Source: Acidaminococcus sp.
GTDB lineage: Bacteria; Bacillota; Negativicutes; Acidaminococcales; Acidaminococcaceae
Length of the DNA: 64,000 nt
NCBI GenBank assembly: GCA_022482815.1
Contig: JAKVOM010000001.1
Location: 1,694,946-1,758,945, forward strand
Reading direction: 5' to 3'
Part shown: positions 8,230 to 32,350 of the stretch, piece after piece
Numbering within the stretch: position 1 is the first letter of the stretch
Layout: each line of letters begins with the position of its first letter
Made by a program: the position numbers and the translations under genes
Notes under the pieces: generated by a model
The model's input: the letters and a program-made list of their open reading frames with translations, nothing else
What the model was told of the DNA's origin: nothing
The model's database searches: none

Positions 8230-9330
8230 ATGCTCATTCAGCATGCTCACATAGTAAGTCCCCATGTCGAAGAAGGGGACTATGATATTCGAATCCGGGA
8301 CGGTAAAATTGCCGAAGTCGGGGAGTCCCTTTCCGCAGAGGGGGAAACTCTTTTTGATGCCGCCGGAGCTTACGTCACACCGGGGCTCATCGATGCTCAC
8401 ACCCATCTGGGGCTCAAGGCCGACTCCCTTGGCGACTTTTATGCCGATCACAACGAAAAGAAGATGATTCTTGCTCCGGAAATGCGTGCTATTGACGCCA
8501 TCAATCCCCTGGACCGTACTTTTGAAGAGGCACGGAAGGCGGGGATTACGACCTGCGCCAGCGGCCCGGGCTCCCTCAACGTCATTGGGGGTCAGTTTGC
8601 CTGTATCAAGACGCGAGGCAAAATCATCGATGAAATGGTTCTTGATCCTTATTTTGCCATGAAGTGCGCCCTGGGAGAGAACCCCAAGAAGGGTTACGAA
8701 ACCACGAGAATGGGCATTGCTTCGACGCTTCGGGAATTTCTGCTGGCAGCCAAAGTTTATGCCGAAAGCAAGGTGCGGGATTATGACCGTAAATTTGAAC
8801 CCATGGTTCCCGTCATGCGCCGGGAAAAAGCCCTCAAGATTCATTGTCATGAAGCCCAGGATATCGTCACGGCCATTCGTATCTGTGATGAATTTCACCT
8901 CAAATTTACCTTGGATCATGTGACTTGTGGTACGGATATCATTGAATACCTGCAAAAAAGACCGGAAATTCCTCTGCTTATCGGTCCGAGCCTTGGCGCC
9001 CGCGGGAAGGTCGAGCTTCATGGCAAGGGCTTTGAAGGAGCAGCACGGCTGTCGGAAGGACGGGACATCTGCCTCATTACGGACGCACCGGTCATTCCGC
9101 TGCAGTATCTGCCCGTTTGTGCTGGCATTGCCATTAGTAAGGGTATGGATGAAAGAAAAGCCCTTGAAGCCATTACCATCAATCCTGCCCGTGTCATGGG
9201 CGTCGATAATCGCGTCGGGAGCGTGGAAGTTGGTAAAGATGCGGATTTGGTGTTCTATAAGGAGAAGCCGTTTAGGGTGATTCAGGATCCGCTCAGAGTG
9301 ATGATGGATGGGGAGTTTGTAGAGGACTGA
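8230..9330 (+). CDS. Metal-dependent amidohydrolase (imidazolonepropionase-like superfamily)
   Basis: A 366-residue amidohydrolase-fold protein that should hydrolyse a C-N bond with one or two metal ions. The N-terminal metal ligands are in LIDAHTHLG (HTH at 57-59). Further ligand motifs are IHCHEAQD (about 204) and LDHVTCGTD (about 232), and the catalytic aspartate is in ITDAPVIP (about 284). The C-terminal KDADLVFYKEKP closes the composite beta-sandwich typical of the superfamily. The start is set by GAGGAGG at 8213-8219. Substrate cannot be read from sequence. Its position after the AbgT gene suggests, weakly, an amide or dipeptide-like substrate. Structured RNA copy A starts 9 bases after its stop codon. 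Confidence 0.85.
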   Translation: MLIQHAHIVSPHVEEGDYDIRIRDGKIAEVGESLSAEGETLFDAAGAYVTPGLIDAHTHLGLKADSLGDFYADHNEKKMILAPEMRAIDAINPLDRTFEEARKAGITTCASGPGSLNVIGGQFACIKTRGKIIDEMVLDPYFAMKCALGENPKKGYETTRMGIASTLREFLLAAKVYAESKVRDYDRKFEPMVPVMRREKALKIHCHEAQDIVTAIRICDEFHLKFTLDHVTCGTDIIEYLQKRPEIPLLIGPSLGARGKVELHGKGFEGAARLSEGRDICLITDAPVIPLQYLPVCAGIAISKGMDERKALEAITINPARVMGVDNRVGSVEVGKDADLVFYKEKPFRVIQDPLRVMMDGEFVED

Positions 9331-9339
9331 CGGGGCAGG

Positions 9340-9572
9340 TTAAAGGCACCTGCCTTACCCGGGTGCTCGGCTGGCCTCGCACGCCTTGTAAGGCAGAGTT
9401 TTTTCTAAGGAAGTTTTTGATGTCCTTTGCAGAATCCATCTCCATCTGCTTTGTCAGGCGGGCACGTGACCCATCGAGGTACTATTTGTGTACATCTTCT
9501 GGGTCCCGTGCCCGTCTTTCGCGCATCTGGAGCCGTCTTGCAGCAGAGTCCATCAGAAACAATATAAAAAGA
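9340..9572 (+). ncRNA. Three-copy structured element, copy A, 5' part (interrupted by IS)
   Basis: Begins TTAAAGGCACC just after the amidohydrolase stop codon. Hairpin 1 pairs GCCTTAC with GTAAGGC and is followed by AGAGTTTTTTCTAAGGAA. Hairpin 2 is a long interrupted stem: CTTTGC/GCAGAG, CTCCA/TGGAG, GGGCACG/CGTGCCC, GACCCA/TGGGTC and an apical GTAC/GTAC. The helices are shared with copies B and C, with compensating base changes. An ISL3 element sits between hairpin 2 and hairpin 3; the remainder is at 11032-11091. Transcription and function are unknown. Confidence 0.7.
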
Positions 9573-11031
9573 GGTTCTTCACGGAAATTTGTGGACTAAA
9601 AGACATTTGACTATTGAAAAAGGACATTAACTCCTCCAAAATATAATCGTCGAAACCATACCTTGGGAGGAGAAAATGTCCTTTACTAATTACACTATTC
9701 AAAATAATGCAGAATGTCAAGATGTCTTTTACAATGTCTTCATGCCGGAAGACCCTTTTGATGACAGCCAGGAGATTGTTATTTGCAGTGAAAAGAAATA
9801 TACCGACTTCCGTTGTCCTAAATGTGGTCAGAAAATGTATTCTTACGAGCCATTTTCCACCTACTTGAAAAGTTTTCCTGCGTATCCTGAGCATACCAGG
9901 ATGATCCGCTTTGAAGGGCATCGCTTCCGTTGCTCCTGCTGCCATGCAACCATCACTGAGCCTATTCCCTTTAAATATCCAGGAACTCGCATTACCATGA
10001 GAGCTTCTCTCTGGATTGAGACGCTGCTTCGTAATGGAATCCCTGCCAATGCAATTGCCAAGATGTCAGGAATTCACTGGAGCACGGTTCGCTATGTCCA
10101 CAAACAGCTCATGGACGAATCTCTCGATAAATATGAAATGGAATTGGAGCTGACCTCTTACAAGCCCCGTTTCCTGGCCATCGATGAGTTTGCTATCCAT
10201 AAGGGACACACCTATGCCACTTGCGTCATGGATTTAGCGACAGGTTATATTCTCTGGGTTGGCAGAGGTCGGGCGATAGCTGACTTCGAGCATTTCTTCA
10301 AGGAATATGATCAGACAAAGCTGACAGAGGTCAAGGCAGTCGCCATGGATATGAACGCTTCCTACAACAAGCTGGTACAAGAACATCTGCCGCAAGCTAA
10401 GGTCGTGTATGATCGTTACCACATGCAGGCTCAATTCGGGAAGGAAGTATTAGGTGTAGTAAGACTTGATGAGGCCAGAATGCATAGGGATAAAGCCAAC
10501 GATATGCAAGAAGCATTAAAAGACGCAAGTGCTGAAGACAAGCCGGCTTTGAAAGAGCGGATATCCGAGGAAAAGAAGAACTACCGCACATTGAAGAAAG
10601 TCCGCTGGCCGTTACTCACCAATGAAGATAGGCTGAATCCTAAGAGCAAAGAAGCGTTGCAGGCCATCTTTGCAGAGCACGAGGATCTGGCAATATGTTA
10701 TTCCATGAAGGAAGAGATGGTAGCCCTCTATGAATTAAGGGACTATGACAAGGCTCTTGCAGGATGGAAGCGCTGGTTTAAAGCTGCACTAGGCAGCGGG
10801 ATTCCGGCCCTGGTTAGGTTTGCTAAGATTAAGCTGCCAAGGATAGACGGTCTGGTGAACCATGCCCTGTACCCGATAAACACAGGGAAGCTTGAAGGCT
10901 TCAACAACAAGATTAAAGTGGCCAAAAGAAGAGCGTACGGATACAGAGATGATGAGTACTTTTTCACGTTAATTCGCTACCTCTCAATTCCGACCGTAAG
11001 GGGTATACTCCCGAAAAAACCGTGAAGAACC
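9573..11031 (+). mobile_element. ISL3-family insertion sequence, complete
   Basis: 1459 bp, bounded by perfect 12-bp terminal inverted repeats GGTTCTTCACGG (9573-9584) and CCGTGAAGAACC (11020-11031). It is flanked by an 8-bp target duplication TAAAAAGA (9565-9572 and 11032-11039), the length usual for ISL3. The uninterrupted target can be read in copy B of the structured element at 17699-17706. One intact transposase gene is inside, so the element may still be mobile and the insertion is probably recent. Confidence 0.95.
9676..11025 (+). CDS. ISL3-family transposase
   Basis: A 449-residue transposase. The N-terminus has two zinc-binding cysteine pairs (RCPKCGQKM and RCSCCHATI at about residues 45-90). 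A helix-turn-helix segment follows (GIPANAIAKMSGIHWSTVRYV, in two runs). The DDE catalytic core starts at FLAIDEFAIHKGHTYATCV (about 165-183), has VAMDMNASYNK in the middle (about 228), and ends with GKLEGFNNKIKVAKRRAYGY, carrying the catalytic glutamate. The ribosome binding site is TTGGGAGGAG. The gene is intact. Its stop lies six bases from the right end of the element. Confidence 0.95.
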   Translation: MSFTNYTIQNNAECQDVFYNVFMPEDPFDDSQEIVICSEKKYTDFRCPKCGQKMYSYEPFSTYLKSFPAYPEHTRMIRFEGHRFRCSCCHATITEPIPFKYPGTRITMRASLWIETLLRNGIPANAIAKMSGIHWSTVRYVHKQLMDESLDKYEMELELTSYKPRFLAIDEFAIHKGHTYATCVMDLATGYILWVGRGRAIADFEHFFKEYDQTKLTEVKAVAMDMNASYNKLVQEHLPQAKVVYDRYHMQAQFGKEVLGVVRLDEARMHRDKANDMQEALKDASAEDKPALKERISEEKKNYRTLKKVRWPLLTNEDRLNPKSKEALQAIFAEHEDLAICYSMKEEMVALYELRDYDKALAGWKRWFKAALGSGIPALVRFAKIKLPRIDGLVNHALYPINTGKLEGFNNKIKVAKRRAYGYRDDEYFFTLIRYLSIPTVRGILPKKP

Positions 11032-11091
11032 TAAAAAGAGGTGTGTTATTAGGGCATGCGTTTCTAGTTGGGGCGTATGCCTCGTTTTTTA
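11032..11091 (+). ncRNA. Structured element copy A, 3' terminator module
   Basis: Continuation of copy A after the IS. It begins with the duplicated target bases, then AGAGGTGTGTTATTAGGGC, and a hairpin GGCATGCG/CGTATGCC followed by CGTTTTTT. The same module ends copies B (17716-17757) and C (31923-31967), with compensating changes in the stem. Confidence 0.7.
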
Positions 11092-11427: not shown

Positions 11428-12672
11428 TCATATGTCAAGTACAATGTCCTGTGAATCGGAGCTAGTATTTATCTGCTTTTGAAGCATTAATTGAGCAGAT
11501 GTTTTGTATGTATTTCCTGTTGTCTGAAGTGCATAAATTAACCGTACCAACTTTTTGGCTGCATGAGAGATTGCTATGTAGTAATGCTTGCCTTCGTTTA
11601 GTTTCTTAGCTAAATATTCCCTGTAGGCTGGTTCGTACCGGCAGACGAATATCGCTGCGTTAAAGAGCGCAAATCGTAGATAACGTGACCCTCTTTTCTC
11701 CATGTGGGCGCTTCGACCTATCCCACTTCGGCGTCCTGATTGGTTCCTGGACGGTGCAAGCCCGGCATAAGCTAGAACTTTGTCAGGAGAAGAGAACTTG
11801 GAAAAATCCCCGACTTCCGCTAAAATTGCGGCTCCTGTGACGGCACCAATCCCAGGAATTGTAAGTAAAGGTTCCGGATGCTCGCTCAGCAGCTCCTTTT
11901 CCTCAGCCTCGATTTTGCGAATTTCTTCATCATAGTCCTCAAGAATCCGGATGTTCGCCCGCAATTCATGTTCATTGCCCAGATTGTTGTGTTTACCGAT
12001 AGATTTTTTTGCCTCGTCACGAATTTGTTCAGCCAAATCCTCATTTAAGCTGCCTCTGGATGCCTTGTGAATAATGTTTTTCAAGTGTTTCAAGTTGGCG
12101 TTTGCCAGCTCCTCGGGAGTAGGATATTCCATGAATATAGCGTGAGCAGTAGCAGAATTCAGGTTCATATATTTTCCTAGTTCAGGGAAGTTGAGAACCA
12201 CAAGCCGATCCACGTCTTGTTTAATCTTTGTTCTTGCCTGAACCATTCTGAACCGAGATCTGGTAAGTGACATGAGACGTTCATTGTGGTATTCTTTAGG
12301 AACGTAGGGTTTGAGATCCAAATCGGACATGAACATACAGGCTATGAAATGAGCATCAATGCGATCGGTTTTAGTTTTGCGAAGGCTATGACTCTTTTTG
12401 TATTGATCTGTCATCATGGGATTGAAGACATAAGTTGGTAGCCCGTTATTCAGCAGGAATCTGGTGATATTCTCGCTGTAAGGTCCGGTGGCTTCAAGCC
12501 CTACTTTTATGTTTTCTGCCGGTTGTTTGTAAGAGCATATCTGCTTCAGCAGAAAGTCAAAGCCTTCCCAATCATTGGTAATAGTAAATTGCTTGTACCT
12601 GGACTTATGCTCTGGGTCAAGAATGCAGCAGTCATGTTTGTCTTTGGACACATCAATTCCAACGTAGATCAT
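11428..12672 (-). CDS. IS110-family transposase (DEDD recombinase)
   Basis: A 414-residue recombinase. The N-terminal RuvC-like DEDD domain shows YVGIDVSKDKHDCCI (3-17), GLEATGPYSE (about 58) and KTDRIDAHFIA (about 100-110), giving the acidic residues. The C-terminal domain has LLTIPGIGAVTGAAILAEVG (about 270-289) and the SGRRSGIGRSAHMEKRGSRY segment with the conserved serine region. These elements are guided by a bridge RNA encoded in the non-coding end. The start is supported by AGGAGG on the minus strand. The gene is intact. Confidence 0.95.
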   Translation of the reverse strand: MIYVGIDVSKDKHDCCILDPEHKSRYKQFTITNDWEGFDFLLKQICSYKQPAENIKVGLEATGPYSENITRFLLNNGLPTYVFNPMMTDQYKKSHSLRKTKTDRIDAHFIACMFMSDLDLKPYVPKEYHNERLMSLTRSRFRMVQARTKIKQDVDRLVVLNFPELGKYMNLNSATAHAIFMEYPTPEELANANLKHLKNIIHKASRGSLNEDLAEQIRDEAKKSIGKHNNLGNEHELRANIRILEDYDEEIRKIEAEEKELLSEHPEPLLTIPGIGAVTGAAILAEVGDFSKFSSPDKVLAYAGLAPSRNQSGRRSGIGRSAHMEKRGSRYLRFALFNAAIFVCRYEPAYREYLAKKLNEGKHYYIAISHAAKKLVRLIYALQTTGNTYKTSAQLMLQKQINTSSDSQDIVLDI

Positions 12673-13330: not shown

Positions 13331-16300
13331 ATGCAAGATTTTACATCGCTGAATCAAAAGAGACTCGCGCGTCTTGTTCTTTTGGCACTTTGCACTTCGT
13401 CTTTAACGTTTTCGTGGATGAACGCGGCTCATGCCGATGCCTATGAGGAAGATTTCGCTTTTTCCGATGCACAAGCGGCTACGGGAGGGCCTGTTCTGTA
13501 TTACAACAGACAGAACACGGCAGGCACTCTTTCCATTGACGCGGATTCGGTGGATATTTCCGTGATGGCGCCGGTCAACAGTGCGACAGGCAGTGCTGCG
13601 TCCAATGTGTACGGATATGAAATGTTTAACGCATCCGGCAGCGGGGCTGCTGTTTCCATTTCCGGGCGCGATGGCGTCGTGCTTTCTTCCATTTCCAATC
13701 CGGTTTTGACAACTTCCAGCAGCGCGAATTATTGGCAGACGGATACAAAGGAGAAAAAGTCCGTGATCCTGGATGCCCGGAACCGCAGCCAGATTTCGGT
13801 GGATGCATCGGACGGTGATATCTCGCTGAATCTCGCCGACGAAATTCCGTCTGACACGCGGGATGGCTCTTTCAACTTGGTGAAAGATTTTTCCGACTCC
13901 TACAATCGCTCTAAATTGATTGCAGTCCGGGCATACGGCGGTGCTTCGGTTTCTTTGAGCGGAAAGAATGTCTCTATTTCCATTGCCGGAAAGGAAATGC
14001 CGGATGGGTCCCAGTATTATGATCCTCTGGTCAGATTTCAAAATGTGCAGGGCATTGTCGCAACTTCACGGAATTCCGAGGTCAATGTGACGGCGACGGA
14101 CGGTAATAACTCCATTACCCTCGAAAATACGGGCTACTATTCTAATAGGGTTGAAGCATTAACGAACTGTGTATACGCTAATGATGGTTCCTCTGTCAAT
14201 TTGAAGGCCCTCAAAGGCGATAACGTCCTTACCATACAACCGGGACAGGATACCGATGGCGGAAGGGACGACATCACCATAATGGAAAGCTGGGGCGGGG
14301 ATATGAACCTTGAAGGCATCAACAATATCCTCACTCTTGTCGGTACGAAGAATATAAGCGGCGGCAAAGGCATCCACGTGAATCGCAGCGGCGACGTCCA
14401 CATGAAGGCAACGCAGGATAACCGAATCAGTTTTTACACGCCTAACGGCGGTGCGAACTGGGGCATCACGACAGGCGCCACGAATGGCGTGGTCGATGTC
14501 TATGCGGAAAAGGGAAACAATATTATCTCCTTGACGTCGGATTCCCTGACTGCCAGTTTCATGGGAATCTATAACGACGGAGAGAGCGCGGTGGTGTCCC
14601 TGACTGCGCCGCAGGGCGATAACCGCATTCTGGCCGTCGCCGATGAAGCGGCGCAGAATCGTCTGATGGAAGCAGAAGGCGTCCAGCGCCCCAATGGAAT
14701 TTATTATAGAGGACTTCAGATTCTTGCCTCCAATGGAACCATCAATATGGATGGGCAGAATAATGATATAGAGGTTCTCCCGGTACGGAATAGGGGAGAC
14801 TTCCAAGTATACGGCATCCATTTCGGTTTTTCTTTTAAAGATCATATGGCCGCCAATCTGACGGCTGTCCATGATAACACGATTTACAGCAGTGGAACAG
14901 GCATCAACATGGAGGCTGCTAAATCCCACGTTAATATGGAAGCGCAGCAAGGGGACAATAAGATCTATGGCGGAGAGTACGGCATATACATCCCTAATTA
15001 TGACGATGTCCTCATGCATGCCGAGAAAGGTTCCAACTCGGTGACGAGCAATGGCACGGGCATTTATTCCGTCTATAACAGTGCTGTCACGATGCAGGCG
15101 GACGAAAAGGATAATACGGTCACCGGCGAGGAAAACGGAATCCTGACTGACAGAAACGGCAGCGTAACGCTTGACAGCCCGAAGGGCACCAACACGGTCA
15201 CAGGCGGAGAAAGCGCCATCCTGGCTCAAAAGGGCGGGAATGTAACGGTAAATTCTGCTGAAGGTACCAATACGATTGCTGCCGAAACGACAGCTGTCAA
15301 TATGAAAGATGGCGGGACAGGAATTGTTACCGTGGACGGCCAGTCACAGATCAGCGCAGAGACAGCTCTGCTGATTGACGGTACTTCGGGTGATTCCTAC
15401 GAAAGTTACAGGGGCGGCTCCATTAACGTCAACTATAGCGGCGACAGCTCGATTACGGGCGATATTTCGGCCCTGAACGAGGGCAACATTTCCGTCACTC
15501 CGAATGATCAGGGCAAAATGACCCTTACGGGAAATATCTATGCAGCCGACGAGTCTATTTCTCTTGAAAATTACGAGAACCTGTCCGCTTTTGATGCAGG
15601 TTGGTACTCTCTTACGGTAGGAGACGCATGGCAAAATCTGGCGACCGCAGGTGGAACAGTGGATGTACATCTTACCAGCGGAAGCGTTCTGACCGGCACC
15701 GCCGATACGGGCAAACGCTACGCCAAAACGCTGGCGGCCAAAAGAATTTCCACGTATGATGAGATGTTCGAAAAATCCTTCCAGAAATACAGGGATGCTC
15801 AGTATGAATATTTTATGGCATCGTATGGAGGACAGCCGACGGAAGAGGCCTTGGAACAGTTCAATCAGTACATGGAAAATGCGAAAAATTCGCTGCTTCA
15901 CACCTTTGATGAAGACACCTACACTTCTCAATTTACGGCTGACGGTGAAAAATACGGTACCGTCAACATTACCCTTGATGACGGCGCCCTGTGGGATATG
16001 ACGGGTTCTTCTTCTGTCACGACCCTCGGCGGCAGCGGCGGTACGGTGTACTATGAAAACGGCGGCGACGCCCTCGAAATCGGGACGCTGTCCGGCAGCC
16101 ATACCTTTGCCATGGACCTTGATGCGGACGACGGTTCGAACAGCGACATGCTCTACATAAACAACGGTACATCAGATGAACAGACCCTCGTTGTCAAGAA
16201 CCTGCAGACGCTGGACAGCCAGATGGACGATGGGGAAGCGGTTCGCTTTGCCACGGTCAGCAACTCTCAGGATGAATTCCGCAACGGCAAGACCGTCGGC

Positions 16301-17473
16301 TACTCGACGTATGGTATCTACCGGGATGCCTTTACAGTTGAGTATCGGGACGTGGCCACAGATCCGCTCAATACAGATGCCTACAACAAAGAATATAACG
16401 GCGATACGACGGACGGAATTCGCAAACCGACGACAGACTATGTGAATACCTATTACATCGACGGTTACGATGACCCGCAGAACGTCTACCTCGTGAAATC
16501 GACTGAAGCTTTGAACGATGGTGCAGTCACACCGGAACGCAATCGCGACCTTATCTGGCGCTACGTGACGGATATGGATACGTTTACGAAACGCGATGGG
16601 CAGTCCCAGTACTTTACGGACGACGGCAAGCGCGGCGGCTGGGTACGCCTGGGCTATCGCAACCTGGGCGTCGACGGCGTCGGCGAACTCGACGGCAATA
16701 CGTATGAACTGGGGTGGACGACGATTTCCCGCCAGAATGACGAGCGGAAACATCGTTTCAGTGCGTCCGTGGCCTATGGCAAGCCGAAAGGCCAGTTTGA
16801 AGGCTACGGCGGGAATCTCACCGTACGCGATTTTTCCGTGAACCTCTACGATACGCACGAATACTATCCGTCCGCCGAGGAGCTTGCCAACAAACCGGAA
16901 TGGAAGAAAGAGTCCCATGCTTACTGGGATAACTATCTGAAGTACCATCATGTGAAGACCGAATACGATGCCTATGATCACGTCGTGGGCACGAAGTATT
17001 CCGGCGATTACGACCAGAACGTATGGAACCTCTCCACGGAATACGGGCATAAGCTGATGATGAACGAAGACTGGTTCTGGGTACCGCAGGCACAGCTGCA
17101 GCTGTCTTATCTCGGCGGTTACGACTATGTAGACTCCCAGGGCCTCCACGTCGATGGCGACCACGACTGGAGCCTTATTGGAAGACTGGGCTTTGATCTC
17201 GTCCGTGATATCCATGACAGCCGCGACAGCAAGCTGTATTTTAAGGCCTCTCTCATGCACGAATTCCTCGACGGCAACGATGTTACCGTCCGTTACGACG
17301 GCGACCGCTATGTGAATGAAGGCGACCAGAGCGGCACGTGGGGCGTCGTAGGGTTAGGTTATAGTAGTAAGATCGGCAAGGAGCAGTACTTCTATATTGA
17401 CGCGGAAAGGTACTTTGGCAACGACTTTGAGAGGACGTACGATATTCGGGCTGGGATCAACTGGAAGTTTTAG
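13331..17473 (+). CDS. Autotransporter with beta-helix passenger and C-terminal beta-barrel
   Basis: A 1380-residue type V secreted surface protein. The N-terminus has a signal peptide: basic QKRLARL, a hydrophobic core, and probable cleavage after about AHADA (residue 36). The passenger (about 40-850) is rich in Asn, Gly, Thr and Val, with irregular repeats of the kind GDNxI..GIY and GTNTVTGG, as expected for a beta-helix. A linker with a short charged helix (about 805-860) precedes further repeats. The barrel begins near residue 1100 (RGGWVRLGYRNLG) and ends RAGINWKF with a terminal phenylalanine, the outer-membrane insertion signal. It shows the organism has an outer membrane. Adhesion is likely, but the ligand is unknown. 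Structured RNA copy B begins at the base after its stop codon. Confidence 0.93.
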   Translation: MQDFTSLNQKRLARLVLLALCTSSLTFSWMNAAHADAYEEDFAFSDAQAATGGPVLYYNRQNTAGTLSIDADSVDISVMAPVNSATGSAASNVYGYEMFNASGSGAAVSISGRDGVVLSSISNPVLTTSSSANYWQTDTKEKKSVILDARNRSQISVDASDGDISLNLADEIPSDTRDGSFNLVKDFSDSYNRSKLIAVRAYGGASVSLSGKNVSISIAGKEMPDGSQYYDPLVRFQNVQGIVATSRNSEVNVTATDGNNSITLENTGYYSNRVEALTNCVYANDGSSVNLKALKGDNVLTIQPGQDTDGGRDDITIMESWGGDMNLEGINNILTLVGTKNISGGKGIHVNRSGDVHMKATQDNRISFYTPNGGANWGITTGATNGVVDVYAEKGNNIISLTSDSLTASFMGIYNDGESAVVSLTAPQGDNRILAVADEAAQNRLMEAEGVQRPNGIYYRGLQILASNGTINMDGQNNDIEVLPVRNRGDFQVYGIHFGFSFKDHMAANLTAVHDNTIYSSGTGINMEAAKSHVNMEAQQGDNKIYGGEYGIYIPNYDDVLMHAEKGSNSVTSNGTGIYSVYNSAVTMQADEKDNTVTGEENGILTDRNGSVTLDSPKGTNTVTGGESAILAQKGGNVTVNSAEGTNTIAAETTAVNMKDGGTGIVTVDGQSQISAETALLIDGTSGDSYESYRGGSINVNYSGDSSITGDISALNEGNISVTPNDQGKMTLTGNIYAADESISLENYENLSAFDAGWYSLTVGDAWQNLATAGGTVDVHLTSGSVLTGTADTGKRYAKTLAAKRISTYDEMFEKSFQKYRDAQYEYFMASYGGQPTEEALEQFNQYMENAKNSLLHTFDEDTYTSQFTADGEKYGTVNITLDDGALWDMTGSSSVTTLGGSGGTVYYENGGDALEIGTLSGSHTFAMDLDADDGSNSDMLYINNGTSDEQTLVVKNLQTLDSQMDDGEAVRFATVSNSQDEFRNGKTVGYSTYGIYRDAFTVEYRDVATDPLNTDAYNKEYNGDTTDGIRKPTTDYVNTYYIDGYDDPQNVYLVKSTEALNDGAVTPERNRDLIWRYVTDMDTFTKRDGQSQYFTDDGKRGGWVRLGYRNLGVDGVGELDGNTYELGWTTISRQNDERKHRFSASVAYGKPKGQFEGYGGNLTVRDFSVNLYDTHEYYPSAEELANKPEWKKESHAYWDNYLKYHHVKTEYDAYDHVVGTKYSGDYDQNVWNLSTEYGHKLMMNEDWFWVPQAQLQLSYLGGYDYVDSQGLHVDGDHDWSLIGRLGFDLVRDIHDSRDSKLYFKASLMHEFLDGNDVTVRYDGDRYVNEGDQSGTWGVVGLGYSSKIGKEQYFYIDAERYFGNDFERTYDIRAGINWKF

Positions 17474-17758
17474 TTAAAGGCACCTGGCCCAATAGAGTCC
17501 TCGACTTGTCTCGGGCGTCTATTGGGCCAGAGTTTTTTCTAAGGAAGTTTCAGCTGTCCTCTGCAGAATCCAACTCCATCTGCTTTGTCAGGCGGGCGCG
17601 TGACCCATCGAGGTACTATTTGTGTACATCTTCTGGGCCCCGCGCCCGTCTTTCGCGCATCTGGAGCTGTCTTGCAGCAGAGTCCATCAGAAACAATATA
17701 AAAAGAGGTGTGTTATCGGGGCATGTGTTCCTTAATGGGGCGTGTGCCTTGTTTTTTT
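17474..17758 (+). ncRNA. Three-copy structured element, copy B (uninterrupted)
   Basis: Starts at the first base after the autotransporter stop codon. Hairpin 1: CTGGCCCAATAGA (17484-17496) with TCTATTGGGCCAG (17518-17530), then AGTTTTTT, a credible terminator. Hairpin 2 (about 17550-17690): CTCTGC/GCAGAG, CTCCA/TGGAG, GGGCGCG/CGCGCCC, CCCA/TGGG, apical GTAC/GTAC. Hairpin 3 (17716-17757): GGCATGTG/CGTGTGCC plus a T-run. Conserved unpaired blocks are CCATCTGCT, TGTCAG and GCATCTGGA. It may act as a terminator, a stable 3'-end RNA or a separate small RNA. Confidence 0.75.
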
Positions 17759-24772: not shown

Positions 24773-25048
24773 AAAAAAACCTTTCGACTCTAGTTAAGAG
24801 ACGAAAGGTTAAACTCGCGCGGTACCACTCTTTTTCATATCCGTAAGGATATACACCTCAGCGGGCACGGACTGTGACATCGATGCCCTCCTGTCTGCTA
24901 ACGGCCAGGCCCCGGCTCCACCTACTACCATGTTCAGCGAGCTGCTCGGAGATCAGTTCGGTTCCTTTCCACTGCAGCCTCACACCGTCCGGCTGCTCTC
25001 TGAAAATATCCGGGAACGTACTAGTTCTCTTCAATGCATTTGTCTTAT
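24773..25048 (-). promoter_or_regulatory. T-box riboswitch leader of the leu operon (leucine-specific)
   Basis: On the minus strand the leader has the T-box core AGTGGTACCGCG (complement of 24818-24829) and a terminator AACCTTTCG / CGAAAGGTT (24802-24810 with 24778-24786) ending in seven T's (24773-24779). Stem I contains GTTCC/GGAAC, with AGTA opposite GAA, forming the specifier-loop motif. The bases after GAA are CTG then A, so the specifier is read as CUG, a leucine codon (complement of 24954-24956). Uncharged tRNA-Leu should favour antitermination. The anticodon choice is inference. Confidence 0.92.
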
Positions 25049-31678: not shown

Positions 31679-31970
31679 TTAAAGGCACCTGGCCCAATAG
31701 AGCCCTCGACATGTCTCGGACGTCTATTGGGCCAGAGTTTTTTCTAAGGAAACTTTTTCTGCCCGGCGCAGAAATATGAGCCCATCTGCTGTGTCAGACC
31801 GAATTGTGACCACTCGACGTACGTTCTTTTGTACGACTTCGTGGCCCCAATCCGGTCTTCCTTGCATCTGGACTCATCTTCTGTGCCGTTCATAAAAAGA
31901 AAATAAAAAAGAGGTTTGTTGTCGGGGCATACGTTTCTGAATGGGACGTATGCCTTGATTTTTATTTTAT
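31679..31970 (+). ncRNA. Three-copy structured element, copy C (divergent sequence, same fold)
   Basis: Begins TTAAAGGCACC three bases after the gltS stop. Hairpin 1 is almost identical to copy B. Hairpin 2 is strongly diverged but keeps the helices: CGGCGCAGAA/TTCTGTGCCG (10 bp), TGAG.CCA/TGG.CTCA, GACCG.ATTG/CAAT.CGGTC, CCAC/GTGG and CGTAC/GTACG. Hairpin 3 is GGCATACGT/ACGTATGCC plus T-run. Unpaired blocks CCATCTGCT, TGTCAG and GCATCTGGA are unchanged. This copy supplies most of the covariation evidence. Confidence 0.75.
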
Positions 31971-31974
31971 TAAA

Positions 31975-32350
31975 AGAAGCTATCACTCCATCGCAAGCGA
32001 TTCTCCTCCTTCCGAAGCCGCGGGGCGGCTTGGAAGAAGGTTTCTCTGAAGCCAAACCTCCTGCGTCGGTTTGCCAAAAGAAAATAAAAAAATCGCTGCG
32101 GTATATTCTTTAGGGACCTTCCTCGACGTCGCTGCGCGACATTGAGGAAGGGGGACCGCTTGCGGTGGATGATGACCCTTATTGTTTTTTTTTACTTCCT
32201 ATATTGTCTTGCTAAAACAAAATAGCTAATGGCTGCGGTGAATGCTCACACCTTTTTTATTTCATTCAGGCAAAGCAAAGCATTGGCCACGTTGAATTTG
32301 TTGTTGTGTAAAAATGTTAAATTATAACACCTGTTAAGGCAGATACTCAG
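31975..32350. repeat. Mosaic intergenic repeats upstream of the LysR gene
   Basis: Contains a CTTCCGAAGCCGCGGGGCGGC palindrome region (32007-32030, in parts), GCCAAACC..GGTTTGCC (32052-32080), an inverted TCGACGTCGCTGCGCGACATT unit (32127-32148), an inverted diverged copy of the 19211-19337 unit (32172-32292), and CACCTGTTAAGGCAG (32328-32342), also found near 48472. No gene is supported. Confidence 0.6.

Follow-up and report, generated by a model that had tools for sequence, protein, structure and literature searches.

Elements in the window

The window (the whole stretch of DNA that was analysed, 64,000 nt) carries three copies, A, B and C, of a hairpin element with a common layout: first a short hairpin 1 directly after a stop codon, then a constant linker that leads to the long hairpin 2, and finally hairpin 3 with its T-run. 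Features of the three copies and the genes before them (assigned with Pfam) are given below, together with matches to two models, R1 for hairpin 1 and R2 for hairpin 2 (153 positions).

8230-9330: gene before copy A, amidohydrolase
9341-9404, no strand assigned: hairpin 1 of copy A, variable stem, T-run on the gene's strand; R1 match 9341-9432, 105.7 bits
9410-9562, - strand (better folding): hairpin 2 of copy A; R2 154.3 bits on -, 39.4 on +
9575-11031, + strand: ISL3-family insertion sequence within copy A, ends placed by eye; transposase ORF 9676-11025 (PF01610, E 1.7e-56)
11032-11091, + strand: linker and terminator-like hairpin 3 of copy A, severed by the insertion; blastn match to the 3' part of copy B
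13331-17473: gene before copy B, autotransporter
17475-17538, no strand assigned: hairpin 1 of copy B, 1 nt after the stop; R1 match 17475-17566, 106.3 bits
17544-17696, - strand (better folding): hairpin 2 of copy B; R2 167.6 bits on -, 41.2 on +
17717-17758, + strand: hairpin 3 of copy B with T-run, terminator-like by its terminator score
30308-31675: gene before copy C, Na+/glutamate symporter
31680-31743, no strand assigned: hairpin 1 of copy C, 4 nt after the stop; R1 match 31680-31771, 98.4 bits
31749-31902, - strand (better folding): hairpin 2 of copy C, with a different basal stem type; R2 156.0 bits on -, 48.0 on +
31921-31970, + strand: hairpin 3 of copy C with T-run, terminator-like by its terminator score

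The sequences, stems and constant unpaired blocks of the three copies are as the earlier note had given them. Its statement that each copy starts 0-9 bases after a stop codon, in the orientation of that gene, holds for B and C, where the R1 model starts 1 nt and 4 nt after the stop; copy A measures 10 nt.

Copy A is in two pieces because an ISL3-family transposase gene (PF01610) lies inside it, and by eye the insertion is flanked by TAAAAAGAGG at 9565-9574 and 11032-11041. A second copy of the repeat (G000:C1:2939786) shows, also by eye, the same ISL3-type end at the corresponding point of the linker behind hairpin 2, so that this insertion sequence may favour the repeat. An IS110-family transposase is encoded at 11428-12672 (- strand), ~340 bases past copy A. 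Downstream of hairpin 3 a recurrent stretch of the form AGAAGCTATC..TCCATCGC..GAAGCCGC..GGCGGCTT was recognised by eye (e.g. window 31970-32060); it trails several copies, including some that have no hairpin 3. The sole Rfam match at gathering score in the window is a T-box leader at 24794-25043 (- strand).

Copy number and modular organisation

The element had first been described as present in three copies. Instead, the genome that carries the window (3.06 Mb; own genome below) holds 52 strong R1 matches (at least 74 bits; 58 at 48 bits or above and 69 at E <= 0.1) and 54 R2 matches at E <= 0.001. BLAST with copy B as query returned 59 matching pieces in the own genome and zero matches in 60 relatives.

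Comparison of the copies by eye revealed a modular make-up. The copies are mosaics: between constant flanks, hairpin 1 has one or another of several unrelated stems, and hairpin 2 has three basal stem types (16, 12 and 7 among 35 simple copies). The basal type agrees on both arms in all but one of these 35; the exception, C1:228532, was judged mismatched by eye and retained among them. By eye, an additional long hairpin or partial repeats are present in some copies, and a second subtype with unchanged loops stands in tandem at 1,628,162-1,628,989, a similar type being found in the congener G005. Certain unpaired letters recur across all subtypes while the stems swap. The gene-proximal end of the repeat is sharp and its far end heterogeneous.

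Five own loci with copies, compared with Rfam, gave group II introns only. These introns, with Rfam catalytic matches, lie at L036:3439-5868 and also in L039, L057 and L037. Their units are near-identical, ~666 bases apart and back to back, with four D1-D4 matches in L036, and intron-like units recur at many further places in the genome.

Position behind genes

With ORFs called mechanically, the start of 47 of the 52 strong copies falls in the span from 3 nt inside to 51 nt past the stop of an ORF of at least 60 aa on the same strand, and 39 of the 52 begin no more than 14 nt after the stop. In a coarser test on the own genome, the gene-side end faced a stop in 48 of 51 copies and, under a wider limit, the far end did so in 21 of 51. 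The upstream genes are unrelated: of 47 ORFs found, 20 were scanned and 19 of these match diverse Pfam families, including sigma-54, phosphoglucose isomerase, M18 peptidase, aromatic amino acid lyase and autotransporters. The element lies at one and the same distance from the stop behind two autotransporter genes, at window 13331-17473 and at G000:C1 before 1880742, whose 3' ends are similar.

A similar polarity is seen in other genomes, where a stop (here one that closes an open frame of at least 80 codons, no start being required) lies within 60 nt of the 3' end of the folded strand in 46 of 56 hits and at the other end in 16 of 56; these 56 are a non-random set, namely hits with flanking sequence, three of them from G005. 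Among 66 foreign rows, 12 were excluded from the 56 (six second hairpins beside counted ones and six duplicate places or complementary strands), as were two partial G005 rows. Among these second tandem hairpins, a gene stop is present by the 3' end in one and missing in five. Under a 120-nt limit, 32 hits gave 31 and 12 with a stop at the respective ends. The repeat unit consists of one or more long hairpins, mostly placed directly after the stops of unrelated genes.

Terminator-like features accompany this position. A T-run of at least 5 follows hairpin 1 in 40 of 52 copies, hairpin 1 itself receiving no call from the terminator scanner; for copies B and C, scoring of the gene's strand marks hairpin 3 as a terminator. 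Thirteen congener loci with orthologues of two own genes gave neither R1 nor R2 matches, and several of them show by eye a plain hairpin-plus-T terminator behind the stop. Relatives of the element elsewhere frequently lack hairpin 1 and its T-run (by eye).

Folding, covariation and strand

Both strands of B and C fold far better than shuffled sequences, with z of -6.5 (B) and -8.6 (C) on the + strand and of -9.1 (B) and -12.5 (C) on the - strand; 0 of 200 shuffles equalled the native fold in each of the four tests. Covariation is very strong in larger alignments. For hairpin 1 (34 distinct sequences), 93.5% of the cells are paired, 16 of 25 pairs are altered on both sides and the covariation score is 0.548, against at most 0.139 when slid; for hairpin 2 (35 sequences) the values are 95.9%, 27 of 37 and 0.550 (at most 0.098 when slid). 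An alignment of 38 sequences from other genomes (A4), fitted to the model's structure, gave 94.1%, 39 of 44 and 0.555 (at most 0.086). In all three, 0 of 500 shuffles matched the percentage paired, the both-side cells or the score, although the resulting p-values are too strong because the copies and genomes are interrelated and independence is overstated. Weaker measures were reached by shuffles: in hairpin 1 the number of both-side pairs in 29 of 500 and that of pair types in 20 of 500, and in hairpin 2 the number of pair types in 288 of 500.

In 34 of 35 own copies, the opposite strand gives hairpin 2 a more stable fold than the gene's strand does, by a mean of 16 kcal/mol, and in other genomes the strand picked by the model folds better in 55 of 56 examined copies. 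G-U pairs outnumber A-C on this opposite strand, 74 to 10 in own copies and 98 to 27 in the others; on the gene's strand both number 29. The conserved "mismatches" of hairpin 2 read as tandem G-A pairs on the opposite strand (first position G-A in 33 of 35; next position A-G in 23 of 35, with G-C instead in 9). DNA parameters also favour that strand in 34 of 35, so that the strand alone is no proof of RNA. Hairpin 1 gives a mixed picture: by energy the opposite strand is preferred in 40 of 52, and on the gene's strand G-U exceeds A-C by 56 to 8, two outer pairs supplying 38 of the 56.

The selection on RNA shape put forward in the earlier note is upheld as to the folded shape; the strand given there is probably wrong for hairpin 2. 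If our reading (below) is correct, strong covariation combined with a sense-strand position can mislead about the strand.

Turnover at matching gene ends

In the congeners G002, G004, G006 and G007, hairpins are common to the ends of the same genes. Over 17 overlapping copy pairs, all from five gene ends, base pairs were changed on both sides in 137 cases and on one side in 28, and broken in 42, with 59-88% identity in the unpaired columns. Both-side changes far exceed one-side changes, as if whole hairpins had been swapped, and the pattern fits whole-hairpin exchange better than stepwise compensation.

Distribution

The model search of the class proposed earlier was run with R2 and found relatives of the element in 39 of 380 class genomes and 15 of 102 genera, and in 7 of 398 phylum genomes (own genome included in each). 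A closer search of 11 genomes gave 54 matches in the own genome, 0, 8, 7, 4, 7, 13, 10 and 0 in eight congeners, 16 in one class relative and 5 in one phylum relative. Distribution and copy numbers are lower bounds, because R2 was built from own copies and because, wherever more than 40 genomes were searched, the filters were strict and few candidates were scored per genome.

In exact-pattern scans of the genome collection the stricter pattern matched 0 stretches and the looser pattern 7, of which a single Acidaminococcus MAG contributed 4; scans of viral contigs returned 0. Three pattern hits outside the genus (L122, L123, L125) had no R2 match. Plasmid and phage collections gave zero blastn matches to copy B, as did the plasmid collection to the element of the class relative. 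With R1, single weak matches were seen in each of G001 and G004, and two in G008 were rejected as plain terminators (by eye). The family is greatly amplified in its own species, with fewer or undetected copies in relatives, and is found in part of the class and sparsely beyond it. Geobacter-like genomes contain palindromes that may be similar.

Interpretation

We give about even chances to the reading that these elements are a dispersed, strand-polar family of long palindromic repeats, comparable to an oversized REP/BIME element. A trans-acting protein would recognise the folded single strand, DNA or RNA, of the strand opposite the gene, and the copies would spread and be kept alike as hairpins are transferred or converted in their entirety. 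Hairpin 1, which in this reading resembles the gene's terminator, could with its T-run, and together with hairpin 3, replace the gene's own terminator, and gene ends might tolerate copies for this reason. Effects on the host mRNA (termination, 3'-end protection, ribosome slowing near the stop) would be secondary. In favour of this reading are the copy number (54, against 0-13 in eight congeners), the unrelated upstream genes, the position behind stops, the 13 congener loci with no match, the covariation, the strand preference of hairpin 2, the polarity in other genomes, the excess of both-side changes at matching gene ends and the E. coli REPs close to stops. Against it, no mobilising enzyme and no target duplications were found, REP tags are rare and the length exceeds that of REPs. 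The occupation of the same gene ends in congeners could point to a selected host function, which also counts against this reading, as do the mixed strand preference of hairpin 1, the identity of no more than 59-88% in unpaired columns at matching gene ends, and the five of six second tandem hairpins with no gene stop by the 3' end.

A further interpretation, to which we lend tentative and somewhat less credence, is that of an undescribed strand-specific hairpin class in part of one phylum. Here the folded strand with tandem G-A loops, mostly facing a stop, would be recognised by machinery that installs or replaces entire hairpins at the 3' ends of genes; the stems would therefore turn over, and site, polarity and recognition letters would persist.

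It is rather unlikely that the opposite strand yields a structured non-coding RNA, tail-to-tail at the gene's stop, whose internal loops bind a protein or constitute an RNA motif. The better folding of that strand of hairpin 2 (34 of 35 copies in the own genome and 55 of 56 in others), its excess of G-U over A-C (74 vs 10 and 98 vs 27) and the tandem G-A pairs are consistent with such an RNA. However, no promoter-like site was found on the - strand at B or C, DNA parameters prefer the same strand, and the differences in copy number and the unrelated neighbours fit a repeat better.

Action in the sense mRNA seems similarly doubtful: the element would serve as a combined 3' UTR and terminator, ending transcription, guarding the 3' end or holding up ribosomes at the stop. 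This would accommodate the start of 39 of 52 copies within 14 nt of the stop, the T-run behind hairpin 1 in 40 of 52, the terminator score of hairpin 3 in B and C, and the G-U excess of hairpin 1 on the gene's strand (56 vs 8), and the available text of PMC12306157 offers a precedent in the E. coli REPs. Hairpin 2 nevertheless folds more weakly in sense, by the mean of 16 kcal/mol given above, relatives elsewhere often have neither hairpin 1 nor the T-run (by eye), and a 150-nt hairpin with conserved loops is superfluous for a terminator.

The original proposals can be revised in the same light. That of a 3'-end element stands as far as its location is concerned, but other readings account better for the data than an RNA at the sense 3' end does, because hairpin 2 folds better on the opposite strand and the element is modular, present in many copies and placed after genes that are unrelated to one another. 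A single sRNA, like a 6S-like long hairpin, was rejected because dozens of copies follow unrelated genes. Shape selection and the gene 3'-end position hold, and the earlier interpretation as a whole is partly supported.

We attach little probability to a partly mutational origin of the covariation, by which template switching within hairpins would match both arms with no selection on shape. The ratio of both-side to one-side changes at matching gene ends (137 vs 28) would fit, but identical non-Watson-Crick internal loops persist across subtypes and species, and palindrome correction would erase them. Least probable of all are integron-like recombination sites (attC), a reading that is largely refuted: place and strand agree with attC and some clusters share one orientation, but the sites lie behind dispersed chromosomal genes, no R/L boxes were seen by eye, and an integron integrase above the cut-off was found in 0 of 15 genomes, weaker matches occurring in all 14 controls as well.

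Comparison with known systems

None of the 4227 Rfam families matched the repeat at or above gathering score, and the earlier note had likewise recognised no known family. Copy B at E <= 10 gave sub-threshold matches only, and ten loci, nine of them from other genomes, gave two tRNAs only. A published description of the hairpin family was not found in the available text of open-licence literature, including PMC12306157, PMC2267715 and PMC3733652.

Insertion of the MITE or transposon type with target-site duplication was rejected, the longest shared words averaging 6.24 against 6.40 in shuffled pairings. Retro-insertion with 5' truncation, considered because of the sharp gene-proximal and heterogeneous far end, is unsupported, target duplications being absent.

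Sites of the attC type are located after a stop codon, fold on the bottom strand and keep structure over sequence. The repeat likewise sits after a stop and folds on the opposite strand; it differs in that no cassette arrays were seen and the end boxes are others (by eye). Matches to TIGR02249 above the cut-off were absent from all 15 genomes, with weaker ones in 15 of 15 and in 14 of 14 control genomes, and integron attC sites were rejected on the absence of an integrase above the cut-off.

Intrinsic terminators share with the element the T-runs behind hairpins 1 and 3, and plain terminators fill the same slot in several congeners (by eye), whereas hairpin 2 lacks a T-run, far exceeds a terminator in length and has its better fold on the other strand.

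In the broad sense of REP/BIME, the repeat is likewise a high-copy palindrome mainly downstream of coding regions. According to the available text of PMC3733652, REPs are high-copy palindromes of 20-40 bp, mostly downstream of coding regions and hypothesised to be mobile. Of the 4,072 REPs predicted in E. coli, 446 are no more than 15 nt away from a stop, and REPs so placed are reported to lower translation or slow ribosomes (available text of PMC12306157). The RAYT-associated GTAG and CGTC super-families are 20-40 bp long, as against ~150 nt for hairpin 2 alone, and are unlike the repeat in its preferred polarity toward the stop and its conserved internal loops. With no chance control, GTAG was seen at 2 and CGTC at 6 of 25 foreign hairpin ends, and at 2 and 3 of 52 own gene-proximal ends. 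R2 had zero matches in 10 stretches around 9 Y1 transposase genes, including all six of the own genome; one own copy lies ~3.3 kb from a Y1 gene, beyond the searched stretch, and G006 has 13 copies and no Y1 match. A classic REP with RAYT was rejected, given the rare tags and the lack of copies by the searched Y1 genes.

The bcr1 repeats of the Bacillus cereus group and the BOX repeats of Streptococcus are confined to particular lineages, lie between genes, have a structured and modular build and show signs of mobility. The present repeat resembles them in being lineage-restricted, structured, modular and intergenic. It differs in spanning several families and more than one class of a phylum, and in mostly abutting stops with one polarity. 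If our reading is correct, these repeats would mark the ends of genes in a preferred orientation and swap whole hairpins while certain unpaired letters are kept, unlike REP/RAYT, and would provide a test case for the spread of palindromic repeats without a linked transposase.
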